Positions 6,238-13,288 of a stretch of 40,791 nt of DNA are shown here, in pieces (position 1 is the first letter of the stretch; every line of letters begins with the position of its first letter). This DNA is from Culturomica sp. (GTDB lineage: Bacteria; Bacteroidota; Bacteroidia; Bacteroidales; Marinifilaceae). Position numbers and translations under genes: made by a program. The notes below the pieces were generated by a model. The model did not search any database. It was not told the DNA's origin and saw only the letters and a list, made by a program, of their open reading frames with translations. The stretch lies in assembly GCA_031262745.1 (NCBI GenBank), contig JAISHE010000015.1:1-40791 (forward strand), read 5' to 3'.

Positions 6238-7314
6238 ATGTCGCCGAAATTACTGTTATTGCCGCTAAGTGCTCTCTACGGATTAGTTGTGGGAATAAGA
6301 AATTTTATGTATGACAAAGGTATTTTTAAATCAATCTCTTTCAGCGTTCCGATAATTTGCGTAGGTAACATCTCAGTCGGTGGCACAGGTAAAACCCCTT
6401 TCACCGAATATATTATATCCCACCTCATTCTGCAAGGCTATAATATTGCCTACCTTAGTAGAGGGTACAAACGCCTAACATCCGGATTTATCGTAGCAGA
6501 CAAGAATTCCACACCTGCTGATATAGGTGATGAACCGTTTCAAGTGAAGCAAAAATTTCCTAACATCACCGTTGCATGCGATGCCGACAGAGTTAGAGGA
6601 GTTCAAAATCTCTTAAAACTAACACCCGTATTCGATGTAATCATTCTCGACGACGCTTTCCAACATCGCCACATAAAAGCCGGTTATTCCATAGTGCTTG
6701 TTGACTACAACAATATGATAGATAAAGATTTTCTCCTGCCTGCCGGTAGACTTAGAGAATGTGCAAAAAATACGAAGCGTGCCGATTTCGTGGTTGTAAC
6801 AAAATATCATGCTTCATCAATAGATACGGCAACTAAAGCAGAACTCTCCGCTCGTTTAAATATTGAGAAAACTCAGGGATTTGCGGTTGCCGGAATTCGT
6901 TACTCCGAAGCATTACCCGTATTTCCAAAATCTTCTACATACGAGTTGGATAGAATACGCAAAGAAGACAATATTTTGTGCATAACGGGTATTGCCAAAC
7001 CACAACCTTATATTGACTACTTAAAAACATTCACCGGAAATGTTAACACTTTAATCTTCCCTGACCATCACAATTTCAGTAGAAAAGATGTTGAAAATGT
7101 CGTTAAAAGTTTTGCACAACTTCCGTCTGACGGGAATAATTTCATCCTCACCACCGAAAAAGATGCCGTGCGTTTTCAAGCTCTTGATTATGTCCCCGAC
7201 AACATAAAAGGGAAAATGTACTACACCCCTATTAAACCTGAAATCATAGAAGAAAAATCAAATGAAGAACTCTTTGGTAAATTGATTGAATATGTTGAAG
7301 AAAATAAAGGATAG
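6238..7314 (+). CDS. lpxK: Tetraacyldisaccharide 4'-kinase
   Basis: Phosphorylates the 4' position of the lipid A disaccharide precursor, the sixth step of the Raetz pathway, at the inner face of the cytoplasmic membrane. It is 358 aa, close to the family norm. A hydrophobic N-terminal helix (SPKLLLLPLSALYGLVVG) is the membrane anchor. The P-loop GGTGKT is at 48-53 within VGNISVGGTGKTPF, followed by LSRGYKR (about 75-81) and the Walker-B-like DDAFQHRH. Late motifs GIAKPQPY and FPDHHNFS are also typical. It follows sppA after 62 bases and overlaps the purine nucleoside phosphorylase start by 23 bases, so all three may share a transcript. Confidence 0.95.
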   Translation: MSPKLLLLPLSALYGLVVGIRNFMYDKGIFKSISFSVPIICVGNISVGGTGKTPFTEYIISHLILQGYNIAYLSRGYKRLTSGFIVADKNSTPADIGDEPFQVKQKFPNITVACDADRVRGVQNLLKLTPVFDVIILDDAFQHRHIKAGYSIVLVDYNNMIDKDFLLPAGRLRECAKNTKRADFVVVTKYHASSIDTATKAELSARLNIEKTQGFAVAGIRYSEALPVFPKSSTYELDRIRKEDNILCITGIAKPQPYIDYLKTFTGNVNTLIFPDHHNFSRKDVENVVKSFAQLPSDGNNFILTTEKDAVRFQALDYVPDNIKGKMYYTPIKPEIIEEKSNEELFGKLIEYVEENKG

Positions 7315-8104
7315 CGCAGATTTTATACGTAAGTATTTGGACGAAGAGTATGAAACGGCAATCATACTTGGTTCCGGACTTGGGGCACTTGCCGATTCTA
7401 TGGAGGTACATCATCGCCTACCTTACAAGGAGATACCGTTTTTTCCGGTTTCAACGGTTGAAGGACATTCCGGAAATTTGATAATAGGAAAATTCGGCGG
7501 TAGAAACGTGATTGCCATGCAAGGACGTTTCCACTATTATGAGGGCTACAGCATGAAGGAAGTTACATTTCCGATACGTGTCATGAAACTTTTAGGCGTG
7601 AAACATTTATTCGTTTCCAACGCTGCCGGAGGAGTTAACCCTACTTTCCGTGCAGGAGATTTAATGGTTATAACCGATCATATTAATCTTTTCCCCGAAC
7701 ATCCTTTAAGAGGTAAGAACATGGACGAATTCGGCGCACGCTTCCCTTCTATGACGGAAGCTTACAGTAAGCGGCTTATTAGATTGAGCGAAACTTGTGC
7801 CGATGCACTCGGCATAAACATTAAAAAAGGTGTATTCGTGGGTTTGCAGGGACCTTCATTTGAAACACCTGCCGAATACAAATGGTTGCGTATAATCGGA
7901 GGAGATGCCGTTGCCATGTCGACGGTGCCGGAAGTTATCGTGGCGCGTCATTGTGGCATGGAATGTTTTGGTATGTCGGTGATTACCAATGCCACGGCAT
8001 CACCGGAAGAAATAACTACTTCCCACACAGAGGTTCAAGATGTCAGCAACAGTTCGCAACCTGCCATGACTGCTCTTTTCCGTGAAATTATAAGTAGAAT
8101 GTAG
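7292..8104 (+). CDS. punA: Purine nucleoside phosphorylase I (inosine/guanosine type)
   Basis: Cleaves purine nucleosides with phosphate to free base and (deoxy)ribose-1-phosphate in purine salvage; cytoplasmic, trimeric in this family. It is 270 aa. Motifs of the trimeric PNP class are present: GSGLG (27-31, phosphate loop), GHSGN (58-62), HYYEGY (81-86), NAAGGVNP (110-117), GPSFETPAEY and the purine-binding TNATA. I chose ATG 7292; an in-frame TTG two codons earlier is less likely. The start lies inside the end of lpxK (23-base overlap). The gene converges with the minus-strand nucleotidyltransferase. Only a weak 6-bp hairpin (CCTGCT/AGCAGG, 8114-8148) lies between them. Confidence 0.93.
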   Translation: MLKKIKDSADFIRKYLDEEYETAIILGSGLGALADSMEVHHRLPYKEIPFFPVSTVEGHSGNLIIGKFGGRNVIAMQGRFHYYEGYSMKEVTFPIRVMKLLGVKHLFVSNAAGGVNPTFRAGDLMVITDHINLFPEHPLRGKNMDEFGARFPSMTEAYSKRLIRLSETCADALGINIKKGVFVGLQGPSFETPAEYKWLRIIGGDAVAMSTVPEVIVARHCGMECFGMSVITNATASPEEITTSHTEVQDVSNSSQPAMTALFREIISRM

Positions 8105-8158
8105 TTATAACGTCCTGCTCCTAAAATTTAAACTTTAAAAATAGCAGGAAAATTCTGT

Positions 8159-8887
8159 CTATTTGAGCGTATTAACAAACGTCAATGTTTCCGGTCGTCC
8201 GATGTCGAACCATTGAGTACCTTCCGGAGCAAGATAACCGCTTATCTTCAAACGGTCGGAAATAGATATATAGAAATCAATTATTGAAAACCGTCCATGC
8301 CAATCGTTCATGTAATTAACAATCTCCTTAGAAACGACGTGAATACCGTTGAAAGCAAGTCGACGGCATTCATTCGGTTGCAAGTTCAGATAAGGAGATT
8401 TCGTTTCATTTGTTTTTACATTCGTCCAACCACAAAGTCGCAAGTCTCTGTCGAACAAAAGATAACGTTGAGTGGTTCGAGCATCTACAAATAAAGTCGC
8501 CAACGAATCTCCGGATTTATGTCGTTCATACAATTCTTTAATATCCACATCGGTAACCACATCCACATTATGCACCAAAATCGGTTCGTCATTAGTAAAA
8601 AGTTTTGCAGCCTTTTTAATTCCGCCACCCGTATCCAATAAATAATCTCGTTCATCGGAAATTTTTATATCCATGCCGAAATTCCGATTGCTATGCAGGA
8701 AATCTATAATCTGTTCTCCAAAATGATGAACATTAACAACTATTTGCTTTGCTCCTGCCGCTTTTAATTTCAAAATAACATTTGCCAACATCGGTTGTCC
8801 CCATAATTCGACCAATGCTTTGGGTTTATCATTCGTCAAAGGTTGCAATCTCGTTCCGAGACCTGCCGCAAATATTATTGCATTCAT
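8159..8887 (-). CDS. MurU-like sugar-1-phosphate nucleotidyltransferase
   Basis: A 242-residue nucleotidyltransferase (GT-A-like NTP_transferase fold). The N-terminus has the nucleotide-binding signature FAAGLGTRLQPLTNDKPKAL (residues 6-25), with LDTGGGIKKA in the middle and a metal-site motif HNVDVVTD. Length and motifs fit the MurU branch (N-acetylmuramate-1-phosphate uridylyltransferase) better than GlmU or RmlA. Its start codon overlaps the stop of the upstream kinase gene in an ATGA, so the two are translationally coupled. In Pseudomonas, AmgK (an APH-type sugar kinase) and MurU together recycle cell-wall MurNAc to UDP-MurNAc. The pairing here mirrors that, but the sugar is inferred, not seen. 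Confidence 0.8.
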   Translation of the reverse strand: MNAIIFAAGLGTRLQPLTNDKPKALVELWGQPMLANVILKLKAAGAKQIVVNVHHFGEQIIDFLHSNRNFGMDIKISDERDYLLDTGGGIKKAAKLFTNDEPILVHNVDVVTDVDIKELYERHKSGDSLATLFVDARTTQRYLLFDRDLRLCGWTNVKTNETKSPYLNLQPNECRRLAFNGIHVVSKEIVNYMNDWHGRFSIIDFYISISDRLKISGYLAPEGTQWFDIGRPETLTFVNTLK

Positions 8888-10296
8888 TTCTGTAATTCTC
8901 TATGTATCAAACGTACTTTCACTCCGAATTTTTGCGCAATATGCTGTGCGGCACTTTGAGCGGAGTATACCGAACGATGTCTTCCGCCGGTGCAACCGAA
9001 GGACAATTGCAAATGTGTGAAACCTCTTTCCAGATAGCGTTTAACGGAAGCATCCGACAAACTATAAACCGCATCCAGAAATCGTAATATCTCTCCGTCA
9101 TTTTCCAAAAACTTTTTCACCGGTTCATCCAAACCCGTAAGGTTTTTATACTCCTCATATTTACCCGGATTATGTATGGCACGACAATCAAACACGAAAC
9201 CTCCACCATTGCCCGAGTCATCTTCAGGTATTCCTCTTTTATATGAAAAACTGTAAATAGTTACAATTAAAGGCAAATCGGCATTTGAATAATTTGGTGT
9301 GTTTACTGCTTGCAATTGATCCGCAATATCTTTTAAATAAGGATAATCCGAACCTATTTCCGAAAGGATTTCATTAAAATTTTTCAAAGCCGACGGTATA
9401 CTTTCCAGAAAATGCGACTTACCCTCAATCATACCTCTAAAACCGTAAGAACCCAAAACTTGCAATTGTCTGAACAACACAAAATACGTGAGGTGTTCGT
9501 AAAATGACTTTCTATCGGGAATAGTTATGTTCAACTTACCCAATTCATCAAGATACTCATCCAAAAGCAATTGCCTCAATTCATACGAGAAATGCGCCTT
9601 TGATTGCCAGAGAAAAGAAGCAAGATCGTAATACAAATGTCCTTTGCGACCACCCTGAAAGTCTATAAAATACGGTTCACCGTTTTTCAACATAACATTG
9701 CGTGACTGAAAATCACGATACATAAAATAATCTGCCGGCTCAAACAATAATTTGTTTGCCAAATTCTCAAAATCATCTTCCAATTCCGGTTCCGAAAAAT
9801 CCGGCAGTACCATTTTCAAAAAACAATACTTGAAATAGTTCAAATCCCACATCACCGAACGCCTGTCAAACGTTGACACCGGATAACATTTTGCAAAATT
9901 CAAATCTTGCGCACCTTTTATCTGAAAATGCGGCAATAAACGGATAGTGTTTTTTAATAATGTAATCTCTTGCTCCGAGAAACTACCACTTTCTCTACCG
10001 TTTTTTATTGCGTCAAACAAAGAAGTATCACCCAAATCTTCTTGCAAATAATAATGAACATCGTCGGAAACGGAATAAACCTCCGGTACAGGTAATCCTT
10101 TTAGACGAAAATGACGGGCAATGTATATAAAAGCTTCATTCTCACGAACAATTTCTCCATATACACCTATCAAACTACGATGCTCCGACGTTAGACGATA
10201 ATAACAACGATTAGAACCCGACTTAGGTAAAAGCTCTACCCTTTCAACTTTTTCTTCCGGAAATAATTCCGACAACTTATCTTCGTGCATAAGCAT
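8884..10296 (-). CDS. APH-family (AmgK-like) sugar kinase fused to a RapZ C-terminal domain
   Basis: A two-domain cytoplasmic protein of 470 aa. The N-terminal 340 residues form an aminoglycoside-phosphotransferase-type kinase: an early SGSNRCYYRL loop, the catalytic loop YRDFQSRNVML (Asp and Asn in the usual places) and the metal motif FIDFQGG. The last 130 residues (about 341-470) match the C-terminal domain of RapZ: IYSFSYKRG, FVFDCRAIHNPG and GCTGGRHRSVY. In E. coli that domain binds glucosamine-6-phosphate and the GlmZ/GlmY small RNAs; the RapZ N-terminal ATPase is absent here. The gene is coupled by ATGA overlap to the MurU-like gene, suggesting phosphorylation of an amino sugar in cell-wall recycling. 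I chose ATG 10296 because a -7 element lies at 10311-10318; an in-frame ATG at 10347 is upstream of it. ATG 10290 is also possible. Confidence 0.82.
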   Translation of the reverse strand: MLMHEDKLSELFPEEKVERVELLPKSGSNRCYYRLTSEHRSLIGVYGEIVRENEAFIYIARHFRLKGLPVPEVYSVSDDVHYYLQEDLGDTSLFDAIKNGRESGSFSEQEITLLKNTIRLLPHFQIKGAQDLNFAKCYPVSTFDRRSVMWDLNYFKYCFLKMVLPDFSEPELEDDFENLANKLLFEPADYFMYRDFQSRNVMLKNGEPYFIDFQGGRKGHLYYDLASFLWQSKAHFSYELRQLLLDEYLDELGKLNITIPDRKSFYEHLTYFVLFRQLQVLGSYGFRGMIEGKSHFLESIPSALKNFNEILSEIGSDYPYLKDIADQLQAVNTPNYSNADLPLIVTIYSFSYKRGIPEDDSGNGGGFVFDCRAIHNPGKYEEYKNLTGLDEPVKKFLENDGEILRFLDAVYSLSDASVKRYLERGFTHLQLSFGCTGGRHRSVYSAQSAAQHIAQKFGVKVRLIHRELQK

Positions 10297-10310
10297 ATCT
10301 ACATTTCCCA

Positions 10311-10318
10311 CAAAATTA
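10311..10318 (-). promoter_or_regulatory. Candidate -7 element of the kinase-nucleotidyltransferase operon
   Basis: The minus strand reads TAATTTTG, matching TAnnTTTG. No good -33 box is seen at 19-20 bases. Transcription would start only about 10 bases before ATG 10296, so the leader is very short. Confidence 0.5.
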
Positions 10319-10340
10319 TAAGTAATTTTAGATAAATAGA

Positions 10341-10372
10341 CTTGCACATTAAAAAATTATCACATACCTTTG
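10341..10372 (+). promoter_or_regulatory. Promoter of the L31 gene
   Basis: TACCTTTG at 10365-10372 matches the -7 consensus, with CTTG (three of four) at 10341-10344 and a 20-base gap. It predicts a leader of about 40 bases and is divergent from the kinase promoter. Confidence 0.65.
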
Positions 10373-10420
10373 CAACCCGATTGAAATTGGAAGGAATAAT
10401 AATCAAAAACAAGATATATC

Positions 10421-10687
10421 ATGAAAAAAGGCATACATCCTGAGAACTACAGATTGGTTGCATTCAAAGACATGTCAAACGGTATCACGACAATCACAAA
10501 GTCTACTGCTGCAACAAAGGAAACTATTGAAATAGACGGTGTTGAATATCCTCTTGTTAAATTGGAAATCTCAAATTCATCTCATCCGTTCTACACAGGT
10601 AAAGTAAAACTTGTTGACTCTGCCGGTCGTGTGGATAAGTTTATGACTAAATACAAAGATCACCTTGATAAAAGAAAAAAGAATTAA
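10421..10687 (+). CDS. rpmE2: 50S ribosomal protein L31, type B (zinc-free)
   Basis: An 88-residue ribosomal protein starting MKKGIHPENYRLVAFKDMSN, with HPFYTGKVKLVDSAGRVDKF in the C-terminal half. It lacks the CxxC zinc ligands of type A L31, so it is the cysteine-free type B form, which in many bacteria replaces the zinc form under zinc shortage. It is the only L31 in the window, so whether a zinc form also exists cannot be judged. It is monocistronic: its own promoter precedes it and a strong terminator follows at 10734-10758. Confidence 0.95.
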   Translation: MKKGIHPENYRLVAFKDMSNGITTITKSTAATKETIEIDGVEYPLVKLEISNSSHPFYTGKVKLVDSAGRVDKFMTKYKDHLDKRKKN

Positions 10688-10733
10688 TTCATAGTTTTAA
10701 TTTTTAAAAGTTGTTAATTAAAATTCAGAGGTG

Positions 10734-10758
10734 AAAGCTGTCCTTATGGGCAGCTTTT
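10734..10758 (+). terminator. Rho-independent terminator after the L31 gene
   Basis: AAAGCTGTCC (10734-10743), loop TTAT, then GGGCAGCTTT (10748-10757). This gives a 10-bp stem with one G-T wobble, ending in a T run. It separates L31 from lon. Confidence 0.85.
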
Positions 10759-10790
10759 CATGTATAAACGTTGGCATACTAATTGTGCAG

Positions 10791-10852
10791 TAGTAGGTAC
10801 AAATCAAAATACTACTAAATATTGACAAAATGTCAGTTCAAATAAGACTGAC
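10791..10852 (+). promoter_or_regulatory. lon leader region with three short inverted repeats
   Basis: Upstream of lon I see TAGTAG/CTACTA (10791-10796 and 10812-10817), TGACA-aaa-TGTCA (10823-10835) and GTCAGT/ACTGAC (10832-10837 and 10847-10852). The last two share bases and could not form together as RNA hairpins. The lon ribosome-binding site AGGAG (10863-10867) follows immediately. There is no clean TAnnTTTG here; the nearest, TAATTGTG at 10780-10787, has one mismatch. Operator or RNA-structure roles are inference. Confidence 0.35.
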
Positions 10853-10873
10853 GCTAATTTTAAGGAGATAAAA

Positions 10874-13288
10874 ATGAGTAAAGTAAGCATCAAGAAAATC
10901 TTTTCCGACCGAATGAAGAACGACTCTGTTGAGTTTGTGCCGATTATTGACGACGAAAGAGAGTTGTTAAATGATGACACAAATATATCCGACACTCTGC
11001 CAATCTTGCCACTACGCAACACAGTGCTTTTTCCGGGAGTGATTATACCTATTAATATAGGTAGGGATAAATCGATGAATCTTATAAATTACGCATACAA
11101 GCAGAATGCTTATGTTGGTGTAGTTGCACAAAAAGATCAAAATCAGGAAAATCCTAAATTCGATGATCTTTATAATGTTGGTACTATTGCATCTATTTTG
11201 AAAGTACTTGAAATGCCGGACGGTTCCACAACCGCTATACTTCAGGGTAAGCGTCGTTTCATGCTTGAAGATATTTTATATGATGATCCTTATCACGTGG
11301 GTAAAATAGCCCTCAAACCGGAGCAAAAATTACCGGCGAGCGATCCCGAATATAGTGCAATTGCCGCTTCTCTTAGAGATATGGCAAGTGAAATCATTAA
11401 ATATTCCGGAAATATTCCGAATGAAACAGGTTTTGCGGTTAAGAATATCGAAAGTATGTTTTTCCTAATTAATTTCATTTCTGCAAATACGGATATTGAT
11501 TATAAGGACAAACAACAATTGCTTGAGATTGATAACCTAAAAAAACGTGCTTTCAAGCTTTTAAGTTTGCTTAGTAAACAGATAAGCATGCTTGAACTCA
11601 AACACGATATTCAACGTAAGGTACAAACCGACATTGATAAACAGCAGAGAGAGTATTTCTTGCATCAGCAAATGAAGACAATTCAGGACGAACTGGGTGG
11701 TAACCCTTCGGATGAGGAGATCAAGGAACTCGAAGAAAAGGCATCTAAAAAGGAATGGAATGATAATGTAAAGGAAGTTTTTGAAAAAGAACTTTCCAAG
11801 TTGCAACGTTTAAATACGTCATCACCTGATTATTCCGTGCAAGCTAATTATCTGCGTGAAATAGTAGAACTTCCTTGGAACCATATTTCTCATGATAATT
11901 TAGATCTTAACCACGTGAAAAAGGTACTCGATGAAGATCACTTCGGACTTGAAAAGGTGAAAGACCGTATCTTGGAATACATGGCGGTTTTGAAACTAAA
12001 ATCAAATATGAAGTCGCCAATTTTGTGTCTATATGGACCTCCGGGTGTCGGTAAAACTTCTCTCGGAAAGTCTGTGGCACGTTCCATAGGTAGGGAATTT
12101 ATCAGAATGTCGCTTGGCGGTCTGCACGACGAAGCTGAAATCAGAGGTCATCGTAAAACATATATCGGTGCTATGCCGGGACGTATCATACAGAGTATAA
12201 AAAAAGCCGGCACTTCAAATCCCGTTTTCATTCTTGATGAGATAGACAAAGTTGGTAAGGATTTTAGAGGTGATCCGCAGTCAGCATTGTTGGAGGTACT
12301 TGATCCCGAACAAAACAACTCTTTCCATGACAATTATTTGGATATTGACTATGATTTATCGAAAGTGATGTTTATTGCCACAGCAAATGATATTTCTACA
12401 ATTGCACCGCCTTTGAGAGACCGTATGGAGATGATAGAGGTTAGCGGTTATCTGCTTGAAGAAAAGATTGAAATAGCCAAAAGGCATTTGATCCCTAAAC
12501 AGTTGGATAATCATGGTCTCGTTGCTAAGAACGTAGTATTTCCCGATAATGTGATTGAATTTATCATTGAGAAATACACTCGGGAATCCGGAGTTAGAAG
12601 TTTGGATAAGACAATAGCCAAAATCATGAGGCAAGTAGCTCGTAAGGTGGCAATGAATAAGAAATACACTATCGTTCTGGATGAAGACGCTGTTACGAGC
12701 TTTTTGGGTTCTGCCATTTTTTCTCGCGAACAATATCAGGGTAATAAACTTCCGGGGGTTGTTACAGGCTTGGCATGGACGGCGGTAGGCGGTGAAATCT
12801 TATATATCGAATCAAGTTACAGCAAAGGTAAAGGCAATTTAAGTTTGACCGGTAATTTGGGTGATGTGATGAAAGAATCCGCCAAATTGGCTCTGGAATA
12901 TATCAAATCAAATGCACAGAAACTCGGTATAGACGAAGCAAGTCTTACAGAGCGGGACATTCACTTGCATGTACCTGCGGGTGCTGTGCCAAAAGACGGT
13001 CCTTCCGCCGGTATCACAATGGTTACTTCTCTCGTTTCCGCCCTAACCGGCAGAAAAGTGAAAGCAGCTTTGGCAATGACCGGTGAAATCACGTTGAGAG
13101 GCAAAGTGCTACCTGTTGGCGGTATTAGAGAAAAAATCCTTGCAGCCAAACGTGCCGGTATTAAGGAAATAATCCTTTGCAGCGAAAACCGTAAGGATGT
13201 GGAAGAAATCAATAAAACTTATTTAAAGGGATTGAAGTTCCACTATGTAGACCAGATTGACGAAGTTTTAAAATTAGCACTCATTTAA
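10874..13288 (+). CDS. lon: ATP-dependent protease Lon
   Basis: A cytoplasmic AAA+ serine protease of 804 aa that removes misfolded and some regulatory proteins. Domains in order: N-terminal substrate-binding domain (from about 40, [14 protein letters not shown]), a coiled middle region ([20 protein letters not shown]), the AAA+ module with Walker A GPPGVGKT (388-395) and Walker [11 protein letters not shown], and the C-terminal protease domain with the Ser-Lys dyad S711 (DGPSAGITM) and K754 ([10 protein letters not shown]). All key residues are present. A strong AGGAG lies 7 bases before the ATG, unusual in this window. The leader carries several inverted repeats. tatA starts 11 bases after the stop. 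Confidence 0.97.

Follow-up and report, generated by a model that had tools for sequence, protein, structure and literature searches.

An AmgK-like kinase, a RapZ C-terminal domain and a MurU-like nucleotidyltransferase form a probable UDP-MurNAc salvage module in Bacteroidota

The window, a 40,791-nucleotide stretch of Culturomica sp. DNA, carries a minus-strand gene pair flanked by plus-strand genes of different function: those for LpxK and a purine nucleoside phosphorylase to one side, that for Lon to the other. The pair comprises the following features:

8884..10296, minus strand: kinase-RapZ_C fusion gene, 470 amino acids, open reading frame read from the ATG at 10296
9322..10296, minus strand: AmgK-like APH kinase domain, residues 1-325, assigned from Pfam, fold and invariant residues
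8893..9270, minus strand: RapZ C-terminal domain, residues about 343-468, assigned from Pfam PF22740, the structural model and fold
8971..8997, minus strand: GCTGGRHRS, a Cys-x5-Arg-Ser phosphate loop (C435...R441, S442) equivalent to E. coli G246-S254
8884..8887, minus strand: ATGA overlap of the fusion and MurU-like frames (fusion stop 8884-8886, next ATG 8887-8885)
8159..8887, minus strand: candidate MurU-like MurNAc-1-P uridylyltransferase, 242 amino acids, assigned from the best NCBIfam models and co-inheritance

An upstream GTG offers the fusion an alternative start and would extend it to 487 residues. Pfam APH matches residues 23-249 of the fusion protein at 41.6 bits (cut-off 23.2), and PF22740, the RapZ C-terminal domain (RapZ_C), matches residues 344-468 at 114.1 bits with an E value of 5.9e-33 (cut-off 27). 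The two stretches quoted in the initial annotation, FVFDCRAIHNPG and GCTGGRHRSVY, are both present. With both Pfam domains above their cut-offs, the annotation was right to place an APH-type kinase and a RapZ C-terminal signature in one protein, and the ATGA overlap that it described is also there. A genome search revealed that this RapZ_C is the sole copy in the 2.1-Mb genome. The same genome has murB, murA and glmS as consecutive genes (G000:C46:77346-81499).

The kinase domain contains the catalytic pattern YRDFQSRN (D195, N200) and IDFQGG (D212). These three residues, whose roles we take to be those of known APH kinases, are invariant in 19 of 19 aligned sequences, and the top fold match of the domain is 3csv. 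AmgK is the best NCBIfam model for this part, yet the scores of 55.3 bits (NF045759, cut-off 550) and 38 bits (NF045698, cut-off 500) do not reach the cut-offs. The neighbouring protein has the loop and metal site of a nucleotidyltransferase (GxGTRLxPxT and NxD), with G9, G11, R13, K23, N107, D109 and D228 invariant in 17 sequences; their roles are presumably those generally known for nucleotidyltransferases. As the initial annotation had it, this neighbour is MurU-like, since two MurU models are its best NCBIfam models (E values of 5e-34 and 7e-34), though its 117.7 bits are below both cut-offs of 250 and 370. The RapZ model PRK05416 aligns with the fusion only over model positions 155-278 (93.7 bits, cut-off 244); the N-terminus of the fusion is APH and contains no Walker domain. 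By the NCBIfam cut-offs these proteins are therefore neither AmgK, MurU nor RapZ, and the RapZ part belongs with the RapZ C-terminal domain family rather than with RapZ itself. The model of the full fusion has a pTM of 0.72, and the arrangement of its domains is moderately sure. An APH-fold kinase adjoining a MurU-like uridylyltransferase is shared with the AmgK-MurU salvage pathway of Pseudomonas, Caulobacter and T. forsythia. Unlike in that pathway, the kinase here is fused to or travels with RapZ_C, the scores are far under the equivalog cut-offs, and the genome of the window lacks AnmK.

The initial annotation had likened the C-terminal domain to that of E. coli RapZ, and its predicted structure (pLDDT 94.3) proved a close match to the E. 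coli RapZ C-terminal domain (CTD, 5o5s), with a Z-score of 20.6 and an rmsd of 1.6. Alignment of 130 domains, one gene being in the set twice, revealed that C435, T436, G437, G438, H440, R441, S442, D370, R372 and an NPG turn are invariant in 130/130. The Cys-x5-Arg-Ser loop lies between a strand and a helix in the predicted structure, and equivalents of C435, R441, S442, D370 and R372 are kept in all seven canonical RapZ proteins and the two actinobacterial domains compared. In published work on E. coli, the corresponding loop, C247-S254, holds sulphate or malonate (PMC5737377) and is needed for RapZ activity, with C247S inactivating the protein (PMC9841335), and the CTD by itself binds GlcN6P tightly (PMC7073468). 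The annotation had suggested that the fusion could sense an amino-sugar phosphate, and had named loss of the GlcN6P-binding residues as evidence against this. Most of the pocket is intact: four of the five residues of the E. coli anion pocket (H190, T248, G249, H252, R253) are kept in 130/130 domains. The loss has nevertheless partly occurred, as the His190 position is Gly in all 130, compared with His in six of seven canonical RapZ, so that the ligand may not be GlcN6P. Relative to E. coli RapZ, the fusion thus shares the fold and phosphate loop of the CTD and lacks the N-terminal Walker domain, while the domain itself differs by the His190 to Gly replacement, by a GNGGG stretch inserted before FDCR that marks the Bacteroidota-type domain, and by the loss of most RNA-contact residues.

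We surveyed 395 Bacteroidota genomes, 371 of which are of good quality. PF22740 was found in 49, all of them among the 371. By inspection of the loci, RapZ_C is fused to the kinase in 37 of the 49 and is a separate small gene in the other 12. The kinase lies directly upstream of the separate gene in 8/12, giving the order kinase, RapZ_C, MurU as three genes, and elsewhere in the genome in 4/12 (G331, G271, G306 and G180). The MurU-like gene is next to the fusion at 30 of the 37 fused loci. A named collection gave the same picture: the best 80 of 563 relatives, which were kept for analysis, are all fusions; MurU follows directly in 69 and does not in 10, and one is undecidable. Among the 109 loci where MurU follows directly, 29 have the 4-base overlap of the window. 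Because the same fusion occurs in 37/395 genomes and 80/80 kept contigs, mostly with a MurU-like gene beside it, it is not a product of chance or assembly. The neighbourhood recurs across Bacteroidota, and the finding of the initial annotation is real and broader than was seen there: a phylum-wide, three-part module, very likely for salvage. Two genomes have a lone RapZ_C gene followed by an MFS transporter gene on the same strand (L116:7444-7875 and L118:7083-7493).

The three parts are also inherited together. A kinase model built from 19 sequences and run on the same 395 genomes separated a strong class (50 genomes, E ≤ 1.1e-78) from a weaker class (84 genomes, all of family f19, E values of 7e-45 to 5e-22). 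All 49 RapZ_C genomes fall within the 50 with a strong kinase, and RapZ_C was found without a strong kinase in 0/395. A MurU model built from 17 sequences matched at E ≤ 5.6e-55 in 51/51 kinase carriers (the 50 and T. forsythia), whereas the ten kinase-negative genomes searched with it gave nothing better than 9.6e-34. In carriers where MurU does not adjoin the fusion it is found elsewhere in the genome. This co-inheritance indicates that RapZ_C, kinase and MurU form a set even when unlinked, and it supports the earlier assignment of RapZ_C to a recycling module, for the unfused genes as well. The sole strong kinase without RapZ_C (G009, L139:7090-8801) overlaps its MurU gene. In family f19, a related kinase, MurU, NamZ and a sodium symporter stand in a row (L149:5298-9848, L141 and L153; Pfam-checked in L149), and these three genomes have neither RapZ_C nor AnmK. 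NamZ is an exo-muramidase. Since kinase-MurU pairs without RapZ_C exist in G009 and in the f19 genomes read, the chemistry of the pair does not require RapZ_C.

The loss of MurNAc synthesis provides strong indirect evidence of function. MurA is present in 385/395 genomes and in 366 of the 371 good ones, and the five good genomes without it (G115, G132, G180, G216 and G267) all carry the kinase and RapZ_C. The hypergeometric chance of this is 3.3e-5 when genomes are counted as independent, which they are not fully. A further five genomes without MurA, all of them f19 drafts that are either poorly complete or heavily contaminated, were left out of the evidence. MurB is absent from G115, G132, G216, G267 and T. 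forsythia and present in G180 and the four other genomes searched, while MurC is present in 10/10 genomes searched, those lacking MurA and MurB included. It is unlikely that both genes were merely missed in G132, a single contig in which both are absent; in G180, which has 120 contigs and MurB, a missed MurA is possible. A TAG within the MurU match of G216 was identified as the normal stop of that gene. When the losses are mapped on a tree of 38 fusions, the five tips lacking MurA/MurB need five changes. T. forsythia has a single match to the kinase model at E ≤ 0.01; it is the fusion, and MurU comes immediately after it. Published work describes this organism as a MurNAc auxotroph without murA, murB, glmS and glmU, whose murK mutant still produces UDP-MurNAc-pentapeptide, so that another MurNAc route must exist (PMC5790795); an AmgK/MurU route is assumed for it in PMC7670621.

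A set that makes UDP-MurNAc from MurNAc would render MurA and MurB dispensable wherever outside MurNAc is obtainable, and the observed pattern matches this expectation. Co-inheritance and the MurA/MurB losses suggest that the two enzymes work like AmgK and MurU, and we consider it very likely that the module, as the initial annotation proposed, is a UDP-MurNAc salvage unit, in which the presumed activities convert MurNAc to MurNAc-1-P and this to UDP-MurNAc. It is likely the source of MurNAc in several relatives from which the usual synthesis has disappeared: besides T. forsythia, G115, G132, G216 and G267 seem to lack de novo MurNAc synthesis and would be expected to rely on the module. The kinase and nucleotidyltransferase might instead use another sugar, with the MurA link a lineage effect. 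The scores far below the AmgK and MurU cut-offs would allow this, as would a MurA statistic that treats genomes as independent. We judge it improbable, as the MurA/MurB losses take five changes on the fusion tree and all fall in carriers, T. forsythia makes its UDP-MurNAc-pentapeptide (PMC5790795) with no second kinase of this model, and the f19 operon joins such genes with NamZ.

The role of RapZ_C is less certain. In the mechanism we favor, the kinase would phosphorylate C1 of MurNAc, and perhaps of GlcNAc, and the MurU-like enzyme would convert MurNAc-1-P into UDP-MurNAc; the Cys-x5-Arg loop of RapZ_C, the constant partner of the kinase, would bind an amino-sugar phosphate, and the bound sugar phosphate would report hexosamine supply and tune the kinase, in cis where fused and in trans where split. 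MupP, the MurNAc-6-P phosphatase of Pseudomonas, is a HAD-type enzyme, and AnmK is a source of MurNAc-6-P. RapZ_C could alternatively be a PTP-type cysteine phosphatase that cleaves the phosphate off C6 of MurNAc-6-P or GlcNAc-6-P, and would then perform the step of MupP although it is a different enzyme. Much is consistent with catalysis, which we regard as a real, if tentative, possibility. C435, R441, S442, D370 and R372 are invariant in 130/130 domains and form, as in cysteine-dependent PTPs, a C-x5-R-(S/T) loop between strand and helix; the domain also exists as a separate gene; AnmK is present in 31/49 kinase carriers with RapZ_C and 0/85 without; and the His190 to Gly replacement could admit a bulkier sugar. 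Khan and Gorke likened the E. coli RapZ pocket to a cysteine-dependent PTP loop and suggested GlcN6P hydrolysis over time (PMC7199280), so the phosphatase-loop likeness is already published for E. coli RapZ; PMC9841335 reports that C247S inactivates RapZ and that the GlcN6P in crystals looked chemically transformed.

Other observations speak against catalysis. One of the 31 AnmK matches, that of G216, is weak (E 1.2e-10), and the single family f19 accounts for 84 of the 85 kinase carriers that lack RapZ_C. Of the 49 RapZ_C genomes, 18 have no AnmK, among them that of the window, and the plain proposal that RapZ_C replaces MupP for AnmK products is therefore not supported, though MurK-type kinases could supply MurNAc-6-P; with MurK present, a phosphatase would create a futile cycle. 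The top 50 of the plain Foldseek list contains no PTP. One, 3s4o, surfaces only in the VIA second look (Z 6.0, rmsd 3.2, 94 aligned), where it is tied with PFK (best Z 6.8) and Rossmann-like structures; the fold match is not above unrelated ones, and the domain is not known to act as a phosphatase. The tight binding of GlcN6P by the E. coli CTD (PMC7073468) is unlike a fast phosphatase and fits a sensor better, which favors the gate. We therefore lean towards a gate over catalysis, which fits nearly as well, with RNA binding, other substrates or a structural role making up the remainder. Tentatively, gating is the most likely role of RapZ_C, and we find somewhat better than even the explanation as a whole, a UDP-MurNAc salvage pair with RapZ_C as a putative metabolite-responsive gate; the compact self-regulated module of the initial annotation is possible. 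Rather doubtful is the specific scheme in which a cysteine-based amino-sugar-6-phosphate phosphatase lets the fusion move phosphate from C6 to C1 in one protein (MurNAc-6-P to MurNAc to MurNAc-1-P) before MurU acts. If this scheme were true, the protein would amount to a convergent MupP-AmgK fusion and would belong to the only route to UDP-MurNAc in several Bacteroidota that lack MurA/MurB, and it would explain the chemistry of the E. coli RapZ domain.

The annotation had also suggested that the domain, like its E. coli counterpart, could bind RNA and so couple recycling to GlmS supply. The fold is that of RapZ and the equivalents of E. coli K170 and R184 are kept, but the other contacts are mostly gone: the R238 position is aromatic in 130/130 domains, R211 is mostly replaced by Asp, Glu, Gln, Asn or Ala in the 130, K251 is Gln in 121/130, and the KRK terminus has largely disappeared. 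No Rfam family matched within positions 7000-11500 of the window. GlmS over the cut-off is present in 58 of 61 genomes and missing in T. forsythia, G230 and G347, all of which keep RapZ_C (3/51 carriers). Small-RNA control of GlmS by this domain is thus unlikely, and we give the RNA-binding reading very little credence. G230 and G347 (L010 and L016) both have MurA and no GlmS over the cut-off, and may be amino-sugar auxotrophs.

We found no paper in the open-licence PMC literature that joins AmgK with RapZ, and none for RapZ, phosphatase and C247 together. A RapZ domain familiar from enterobacterial sRNA control is here found in a different phylum and linked to an enzyme of metabolism, which offers a test of whether handling sugar phosphates is the older job of the domain. 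The RefSeq label 'RNase adapter RapZ' hides the kinase, as in a B. finegoldii fusion (L159:4990-6420) on a 95-kb plasmid record. Used as a query, E. coli RapZ matched 26 Streptomyces plasmid records. Stand-alone RapZ_C genes of about 130 amino acids occur on Streptomyces and Nocardiopsis plasmids (L160:4986-5381 and L161:4962-5366) with no annotated kinase near, and a RapZ on a Desulfosarcina plasmid (L162:4567-5171), annotated as two short pieces, is probably a broken gene.
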